NCBI GenBank assembly: GCA_017408395.1
Contig: JAFQUQ010000026.1
Location: forward strand, 1 to 41,655
Reading direction: 5' to 3'
Length of the DNA stretch: 41,655 nt
From: Oscillospiraceae bacterium
Lineage (GTDB): Bacteria; Bacillota; Clostridia; Oscillospirales; Ruminococcaceae
Part shown: positions 25,561 to 26,045 of the stretch, in pieces
Numbering within the stretch: the stretch's first letter is position 1
Layout: every line of letters begins with the position of its first letter
Translations under genes and position numbers: made by a program
The notes under the pieces: model-generated
What the model was told of the DNA's origin: nothing
The model's input: the letters and a program-made list of their open reading frames with translations, nothing else
The model's database searches: none

Positions 25561-25662
25561 TCTTAAACACCTCATCTCTTTTTAATATTATATGATTAGC
25601 ATAGCAGCCCATCACATAATACCGAGACAGTAGTGCTATTTTTTAATCACTTACAGAAAATT

Positions 25663-25691
25663 ATTATATCACAGTCAGCTTGCCTTGTCAA
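25663..25691 (-). promoter_or_regulatory. Consensus promoter of rpmE
   Basis: On the minus strand TTGACA (25691-25686), a 17-nt spacer and TATAAT (25668-25663) match the SigA consensus exactly. The start is near 25656. It is divergent from the toxin promoter at 25726. Confidence 0.85.
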
Positions 25692-25725: not shown

Positions 25726-25754
25726 TTGACAAAATTTTCATATAATGCTGTAAT
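25726..25754 (+). promoter_or_regulatory. Promoter of the small toxin-like gene
   Basis: TTGACA (25726-25731), a 17-nt spacer and TGTAAT (25749-25754) predict a start near 25761. A TATAAT also occurs at 25741-25746, but its spacing from the -35 box is only 9 nt. Confidence 0.7.
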
Positions 25755-25796
25755 TAGTTTGCTGTCGACTCCGATTCGCTTAACTGTGGAAAGGAG

Positions 25797-25836
25797 GTGG
25801 TACAGTGGAACTCGGCACATTTTTATTTTCTTTTCT
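25797..25836 (+). repeat. Direct repeats, copy 1, over the toxin start region
   Basis: GTGGTACAGTGGA (25797-25809) spans the end of the ribosome site and the GTG start. ATTTTCTTTTCT (25825-25836) lies within codons 7-11. Both recur in the same order at 25979-26010, so the antisense RNA made there is complementary to this region. Confidence 0.75.
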
Positions 25837-25915
25837 TATCTCTGTTATAGCAGGAGTAACCGCTAATACGGTTTACGATTTAATCTGCAGATGGCTGAAC
25901 AGCAGAAAGAAGTAA
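25805..25915 (+). CDS. 36-aa hydrophobic peptide, putative Fst/par-like type I toxin
   Basis: GTG at 25805 follows a near-perfect ribosome site, AAAGGAGGTGG, at 6-7 nt spacing. The 36-codon product has one membrane span (about residues 5-24, FLFSFLISVIAGVTANTVYD) and a positively charged tail ending RWLNSRKK. A hydrophobic helix with a WL-x2-R type tail is characteristic of small type I toxins of the Fst kind. The gene has its own promoter and ends 21 nt before a shared 14-bp terminator. A consensus promoter facing it makes a short RNA. Direct repeats join that RNA to this gene's start region. Function as a membrane-acting toxin is inferred from this architecture and has not been shown. No ATG-started alternative exists. 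Confidence 0.78.
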   Translation: MELGTFLFSFLISVIAGVTANTVYDLICRWLNSRKK

Positions 25916-25936
25916 AAGACGGCAGCACAGTCAAAA

Positions 25937-25970
25937 AATCCCCCCTGAAGCGGCAACTTCAGGGGGGATT
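25937..25970. terminator. Shared bidirectional terminator of toxin and antisense RNA
   Basis: AATCCCCCCTGAAG (25937-25950) and its perfect complement (25957-25970) form a 14-bp stem with a 6-nt loop. The minus direction has a strong T run (TTTTTT), while the plus direction has a weaker ACTTTTG tail. Confidence 0.88.
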
Positions 25971-25978
25971 ACTTTTGC

Positions 25979-26010
25979 GTGGTCACAGTGGACACGGCAT
26001 TTTCTTTTCT
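25979..26010 (+). repeat. Direct repeats, copy 2, in the antisense RNA 5' region
   Basis: GTGGTCACAGTGGA (25979-25992) matches copy 1 except for one inserted C. CGGCA is shared next (25995-25999 and 25814-25818). ATTTTCTTTTCT (25999-26010) is identical to copy 1, which here lacks the 7-nt insertion present between the blocks in the gene. The predicted antisense start coincides with the last base. Confidence 0.75.
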
Positions 26011-26016
26011 GTGCAT

Positions 26017-26045
26017 ATTATAACACACTCATTTATTTTTGTCAA
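26017..26045 (-). promoter_or_regulatory. Consensus promoter of the antisense RNA
   Basis: On the minus strand TTGACA (26045-26040), a 17-nt spacer and TATAAT (26022-26017) match the SigA consensus exactly. It is stronger on paper than the toxin promoter, as expected for an antitoxin RNA. Confidence 0.85.

Follow-up and report, generated by a model that had tools for sequence, protein, structure and literature searches.

In the par (Fst) system of the Enterococcus faecalis plasmid pAD1, as two published accounts describe it, an mRNA (RNA I) for a small single-span toxin and an antitoxin RNA (RNA II) converge on one shared terminator, RNA II pairs with RNA I through direct repeats and blocks ribosome binding, and a 5′ stem-loop lies at the ribosome site (PMC4147584, PMC7472228). 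A review gives as the signature of the Fst/Ldr superfamily a tryptophan between the membrane span and the charged C-terminus together with P/D/S/TXXXG in the span of most members, and calls the role of chromosomal Fst loci obscure (PMC7472228). The fst-Sm/srSm pair of Streptococcus mutans is reported as chromosomal, with a bidirectional terminator and direct repeats overlapping the toxin start codon (PMC3543317). From the Clostridia, one source counts 13 potential type I modules in C. difficile, where a small hydrophobic toxin is paired with an antisense RNA (CD2517.1-RCd8 and others) and three pairs are described as convergent and overlapping; it describes these toxins of 34-59 aa as without sequence homology to the type I toxins of other bacteria, and mentions Fst-like sequences already reported from two Clostridium species (PMC6563280).

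Here we describe a locus from an Oscillospiraceae bacterium that resembles these systems, found in a DNA stretch of 41,655 nucleotides that was analysed as a whole and is termed here the window (assembly GCA_017408395.1, contig JAFQUQ010000026.1). We read it, with a probability of about 0.9, as a chromosomal par/Fst-type type I toxin-antitoxin locus with the wiring of pAD1, whose toxicity and transcription are predicted. In window coordinates its features are the following.

25726-25754, plus strand: predicted toxin promoter, TTGACA-17-TGTAAT (TTGACA at 25726-25731, TGTAAT at 25749-25754, TGC directly before the -10), read directly from the sequence.
25761-25975, plus strand: predicted toxin mRNA (RNA I analogue), from promoter and terminator positions, fold z of -4.0 (25758-25975) and a match to Rfam SpF66.
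25769-25796, plus strand: possible 5′ stem-loop, with CUCC pairing to GGAG of the ribosome site (predicted pairing).
25797-25836, plus strand: direct repeat, toxin copy, in two blocks over the end of the ribosome site, the start codon and the first codons (25797-25831 by alignment, 25797-25836 by duplex).
25805-25915, plus strand: toxin-like peptide ORF with GTG start, 36 aa, one hydrophobic span, SVIAG (S13-G17), W30 and a basic tail.
25937-25970, both strands: shared bidirectional terminator stem-loop of 14-15 pairs, terminator-like on both strands, with an exact 14-nt inverted repeat.
25979-26010, plus strand: direct repeat, antitoxin copy, by alignment and duplex; the small RNA would begin with its complement.
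26010 to about 25931, minus strand: predicted antitoxin small RNA (RNA II analogue) of about 80 nt, from promoter and terminator positions and fold z of -5.7.
26045-26017, minus strand: antitoxin promoter, TTGACA-17-TATAAT, 12/12 by consensus scan.

An initial annotation of this DNA had proposed a 36-codon gene with a strong ribosome site for a single-span hydrophobic peptide with a basic RWLNSRKK tail, a TTGACA-17-TGTAAT promoter of its own, an exact TTGACA-17-TATAAT promoter facing it and driving a 79-nt RNA, and one 14-bp bidirectional stem on which both transcripts end, and as far as sequence can speak all of these elements were found again. The gene starts with GTG behind the ribosome site AAAGGAGGTG and translates as MELGTFLFSFLISVIAGVTANTVYDLICRWLNSRKK, whose best 19-residue hydropathy value is 1.77, from residue 5. 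With W30 separating the span from the charged tail and S13-VIA-G17 within the span, the peptide bears the published Fst/Ldr signature. Its motif SVIAG differs from PXXXG, called the commonest form by the review, and its WLNSRKK tail is basic, whereas the tail of the pAD1 toxin is described as beginning with five negatively charged residues (PMC7472228). The locus further departs from pAD1 par, which we compared by its published description, in being chromosomal, in its GTG start and in its length of 36 aa. The chromosomal setting, the bidirectional terminator and the repeats over the start codon are shared with fst-Sm/srSm, but the latter is streptococcal and its motif is given as APUU(A/V)GUU (PMC3543317).

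The toxin promoter is absent from the list of our consensus scan because the scan demands A at position 2 of the -10. The facing promoter was returned by that scan, and a start about 7 nt downstream of its -10 places the predicted small-RNA 5′ end at 26010. Promoter-like sites are common (4 in 1,001 bases versus 3.0 in shuffles) and the mere presence of one says little; more weight falls on a facing site at this place with 12/12 positions. For the minus-strand RNA the terminator has a good T run (TTTTTTGACT); that of the plus-strand RNA (ACTTTTG) is weaker. Both predicted RNAs fold better than shuffles, an excess that is probably due in large part to the shared terminator stem. Together the positions of promoters and stem match the convergent layout with a shared terminator of pAD1 par, as the initial annotation had suggested.

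Between the terminator stem and the antitoxin promoter lies a repeat of the toxin start that was absent from that annotation. A gapped local alignment of the toxin start and the small-RNA region reads GTGGT-ACAGTGGAACTCGGCACATTTTTATTTTCT against GTGGTCACAGTGG-ACACGGCA---TTTTCTTTTCT, and its score of 40 was reached by 0 of 500 dinucleotide shuffles, by 0 of 8,086 placements of equal geometry elsewhere in the window and by 0 of 16,446 other 46-mers. The energy-based duplex joins 25797-25836 with 25979-26010 around an 8-nt bulge at -39.2 kcal/mol, compared to a shuffle mean of -19.8 (sd 3.8), with none of 5,000 shuffles as low, and the end of the antitoxin copy coincides with the predicted small-RNA start at 26010. 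An ungapped repeat finder, which returned only the 12-nt core ATTTTCTTTTCT (25825-25836 and 25999-26010), was dropped as a repeat detector after missing the gapped repeat. Because repeat and duplex match at the toxin start and reach the small-RNA 5′ end, the predicted RNA can cover the toxin start from the last bases of the ribosome site, across the start codon, to approximately the tenth codon. This repeat is the putative direct-repeat contact of pAD1 par, with the difference that pAD1 carries DRa and DRb and the window one repeat in two blocks.

A 5′ stem-loop sequestering the ribosome site is plausible. In 11 hand-picked leaders, 87.8% of cells were paired in this stem-loop versus 47.3-60.2% when it was slid by 1 to 3 columns, and no covariation above the shuffle control was found in the same 11. 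The ribosome site is more than 80% paired in 20 of 38 leaders (5 further leaders have no recognised ribosome site), and 20 of the 38 have at most 20 of 100 shuffles pairing the site equally well. In the window itself this pairing is not above shuffles, 43 of 100 being as high.

Relatives were searched with the peptide alone and with a profile (A1) of 14 rows from 11 genomes. The peptide alone matched 4 of 61 relatives' genomes at E<=0.1, which include its own genome and one chance-level match (L004), and 17 of 297 genomes of the family. The profile matched 36 of the 297 same-family genomes at E<=0.01 and 25 of these at E<=1e-6; 11 of the 25 had supplied rows to A1, so that their matches arise by construction, and 14 had supplied none. 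Six of the 24 places from the peptide search were not returned by the profile (L009, L010, L013, L014, L016, L019), and some weak profile matches, lying in long ORFs, are probably chance. Across the phylum the profile matched 8 of 299 genomes at E<=1e-5, its own genome included. A tblastn search of a phage collection gave no match at E<=10 and PADLOC none at E<=1.

The fetched loci contained 53 ORFs with start codons chosen by a script rule; after dropping four over 60 aa and two truncated downstream (L005, L066), 47 were tested, namely the window's own, three from plasmids and 43 from loci of other genomes, and plasmid locus L056, which has no A1 match, was tested apart. The toxin-start repeat was present at p<=0.01 in 37 of the 47. 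A facing promoter with 12/12 positions was found in 23/47 ORFs versus 0.0 in shuffles, and one with at least 10/12 in 34 ORFs (33 when a slightly different stretch was scanned), versus 3.0 in shuffles and 8 on the same strand; the bar of at least 9/12 (41/47) is weak and means little, because shuffles give 17.3/47. Homologues conserved without antisense promoter and repeats, named in the initial annotation as evidence to the contrary, are mostly not what these 47 ORFs are (repeat in 37/47, promoter of at least 10/12 in 34/47), although ten do lack the repeat. These comprise six at which a search for another antitoxin found none (L045, L046 with p=0.020, L048, L067, L068 with p=0.014, and L070), two that have a divergent antitoxin instead (L015 and L017), and the second ORFs of L008 and L049. 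Of 18 ORFs from the phylum loci, 15 carry the repeat at p<=0.01, among them the long ORF of L163, whose status as a gene is doubtful. The three that do not are those of L167 and L169 and one of four in L166.

Tryptophan occurs after residue 12 in 39 of the 43 peptides counted (window included), and the P/D/S/T-XXX-G motif is not universal in the branch, since its strict form is present in only 17 of the 43. Several relatives occur as adjacent copies: four ORFs in L166 and two each in L061, L008/L021 and L020/L023, with L020 and L023 encoding an identical peptide. In a genome of the same genus (L002:1396-1497), an insertion bounded by inverted repeats of 35 nt, which are 83% complementary, splits a toxin-like ORF directly behind its start.

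One may ask from such losses if the window holds a decayed or silent par locus, whose features persist although its peptide is no longer made or toxic. The locus is single-copy in its own genome, an assembly that is 71% complete, the same-genus ORF of L002 has been cut, and several relatives lack the repeat or the promoter. However, the window ORF, its ribosome site, the 12/12 antitoxin promoter, the terminator and the repeat are all intact and the predicted duplex is strong (-39.2 kcal/mol), and we regard decay as quite unlikely.

The par-type reading can be followed further by pairing across loci. From the 47 ORFs we took 37 with a promoter of at least 9/12 and at least 29 bits, including the window and two plasmid loci, and paired each antitoxin 5′ segment with every toxin start in this set. 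In 31 loci, window included, the cognate toxin start outranked the 36 others, and in L003 it came second; neither rank was reached by L002 (where the ORF is interrupted), the second L008 ORF, L065, L067 and L068, and the first rank of L017 carries no weight, being scored on the convergent segment and not on its likely antitoxin. The repeats vary between loci and match within each locus, the pattern expected if selection acts on the pairing. A recent duplication of the start region would look alike but leaves unexplained a match that persists amid sequence divergence.

The window peptide has no match at E<=10 to Pfam PF13955 or NCBIfam NF033608 and is not filed under them because it falls short of both models. 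Some relatives come closer, with L175, L172 and L171 scoring 19.8, 17.6 and 18.4 bits on NF033608 (cut-off 26 bits) and L175 scoring 21.1 bits on Ldr_toxin (cut-off 27), all below the cut-offs; other tested relatives had weaker scores on Ldr_toxin or no match to either model. One of the 299 phylum genomes encodes three peptides over the NF033608 cut-off (L160-L162; toxin-start repeat p=0.002, 0.002 and 0.024), and the same genome has a profile relative. A plasmid tblastn returned four records at E 3-7, weak alone, two of which are annotated as “type I toxin-antitoxin system Fst family toxin” (L055 from Megamonas, L056 from Staphylococcus nepalensis). The toxin-start repeat is present in all four plasmid loci (L055, L056, L057, L058; p=0.002 each), and the two annotated Fst loci have the same layout as the window's. 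The Megamonas funiformis toxin WP_208854436.1 (L055) is 37.9% identical to the window peptide over 29 residues; it differs in being plasmid-borne and over the NF033608 cut-off, the window peptide being below.

NF047374 (CD_typeI_toxin) is the one NCBIfam model that the window peptide matches, at 17.4 bits and E 0.0044, and C. difficile pairs have likewise been described as convergent (PMC6563280), which might suggest a type I pair of the C. difficile type, convergent but unrelated to par. We give this hardly any credence, given that the score is far under the 60-bit cut-off, that hydrophobic spans are expected to match each other, and that relatives bridge towards the Fst/Ldr models and the annotated Fst loci. 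Slightly less remote, but still very improbable, is a small membrane protein of non-toxic use, such as a signalling or membrane-modulating peptide, under a regulatory antisense RNA. Peptide identity alone does not prove toxicity, and chromosomal Fst loci are described as obscure in role (PMC7472228), but the Fst/Ldr signature, the par contact sites and the existence of relatives that are annotated as Fst or that occur in tandem or in several copies all point to toxin-antitoxin use.

At the RNA level, window positions 25767-25981 match the full length (1-239) of Rfam RF02442 SpF66 with 37.5 bits, below the gathering score of 42. The Megamonas locus scores 37.1 bits and the S. parasuis plasmid locus L057 127.5 bits, and five nearer relatives (L003, L007, L012, L015, L017) gave no match in an Rfam scan at E<=0.01. 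Because of its layout, SpF66, filed as a Streptococcus sRNA, may be the toxin mRNA of a par-type locus; a literature search on SpF66 found nothing. In L057:496-724 a start-codon repeat is accompanied by a 12/12 promoter facing the toxin, and the PLSDB gene table, which is incomplete, has no gene there. The window small RNA has no match to the Fst antitoxin family RF01797 (fstAT) at E<=1, nor at E<=5, and the Staphylococcus plasmid locus L056 scores 40.7 bits on it (gathering 72). Matches to rli38, bxd_6, NsiR1, snoU6-53, CC2171, ctRNA_p42d, Afu_514 and PyrR were rejected, all being below gathering and due to chance or drawn by the strong terminator stem.

The par/Fst-like reading proposed in the initial annotation is the best one because the locus has the same layout, the contact sites and the peptide signature, and because homologues mostly keep them. 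The expectation that a locus on a Clostridia chromosome would extend the family is weaker, since Fst-like Clostridium sequences and the convergent C. difficile pairs were already in print. A literature search on Fst with Ruminococcus and related terms found nothing on this branch among the papers listed, which is no proof of absence, and one on Fst/Ldr toxins brought up reviews and systems already described. The wiring is that known from an enterococcal plasmid, and the branch is unnamed by the protein-family models tried.

As to the genomic setting, the neighbouring phosphoglucomutase has its nearest named matches in assemblies of Ruminococcus and Oscillospiraceae, with 84-89% identity (best 6 of 80 kept), and none of the 80 kept match stretches holds a profile relative above chance level. 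In L083 the phosphoglucomutase and rpmE matches are about 145 nt apart without acetyltransferase or toxin, L115, L116, L119 and L120 have an apparent different ORF at the corresponding spot, and L156 has a short gap. The spot between phosphoglucomutase and rpmE is variable among related stretches, and toxin and acetyltransferase may have arrived there as a block. The acetyltransferase was rejected as a partner of the system: in genome G003, which the profile does not match, its 65% relative has different surroundings. A further TTGACA-17-TATAAT promoter, likewise perfect (25663-25691, minus strand), stands back to back with the toxin promoter and presumably serves rpmE. The rpmE leader (about 25590-25640, minus strand) contains a strongly conserved element common to the window and six relatives, in which an AUAGCA/UGCUAU stem can be seen by eye, with AUAGUA/UACUAU as its counterpart in L156. 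In the consensus fold from RNAalifold other bases are paired, and the covariation term is only -0.1. The element has no Rfam match, and an L31 leader has been described for Firmicutes (PMC7247131).

The loci L015 and L017 are natural REARRANGEMENT. Both fail the convergent repeat test; in each, a 12/12 promoter lies upstream of the toxin on the other strand, with the antitoxin start 112 nt (L015) and 150 nt (L017) before the toxin start, and the 5′ part of the predicted upstream RNA is complementary to the toxin start. In L017 the terminator hairpin of the divergent antitoxin is complementary to that of the toxin at 44 of 49 aligned positions, and in L015 the complementarity spans 34 alignment columns with gaps and mismatches, both figures being without shuffle control. 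Both par contact sites thus seem to be kept although the transcripts no longer overlap. We would place even odds on a broader view, in which the window locus is part of a widespread Fst/Ldr branch missed by present models, in some members of which (L015, L017) the antitoxin left the shared terminator for an upstream divergent site, keeping the start-codon repeat and the hairpin copies, so that selection keeps the two contact sites and not the overlap.

From an ORF, promoter-like sites, a terminator-like stem, a repeat and a complementarity kept within loci across relatives, we infer transcription, contact order, translation block, toxicity and the toxin-releasing condition as follows. RNA I, transcribed from the promoter at 25726-25754, would encode a 36-aa single-span membrane toxin of the Fst/Ldr superfamily, and RNA II, of about 80 nt, would start at 26010 on the other strand. 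Through the shared hairpin (25937-25970) the 3′ hairpins of the two RNAs would be mutually complementary, and the 5′ half of RNA II would be complementary to the toxin's translation start, from the last bases of the ribosome site through the start codon into the first codons. Contact would likely be made at the 3′ hairpins first and then zip up at the direct repeat, upon which ribosome binding would be blocked, and the 5′ stem-loop would perhaps help to silence free toxin mRNA. Should RNA II drop, the peptide would be made and inserted into the membrane, and growth would stop.

The locus puts the predicted pAD1 par wiring, a start-codon repeat together with a shared terminator, on a Ruminococcus-like chromosome, and by profile this extends to 36 of the 297 sampled genomes of the family. 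The divergent loci would separate the demand that the RNAs must pair at both ends from the demand that they must overlap on the DNA, and the many diverged, self-matched loci offer a comparative set for asking which bases of an antisense RNA and its target must pair.
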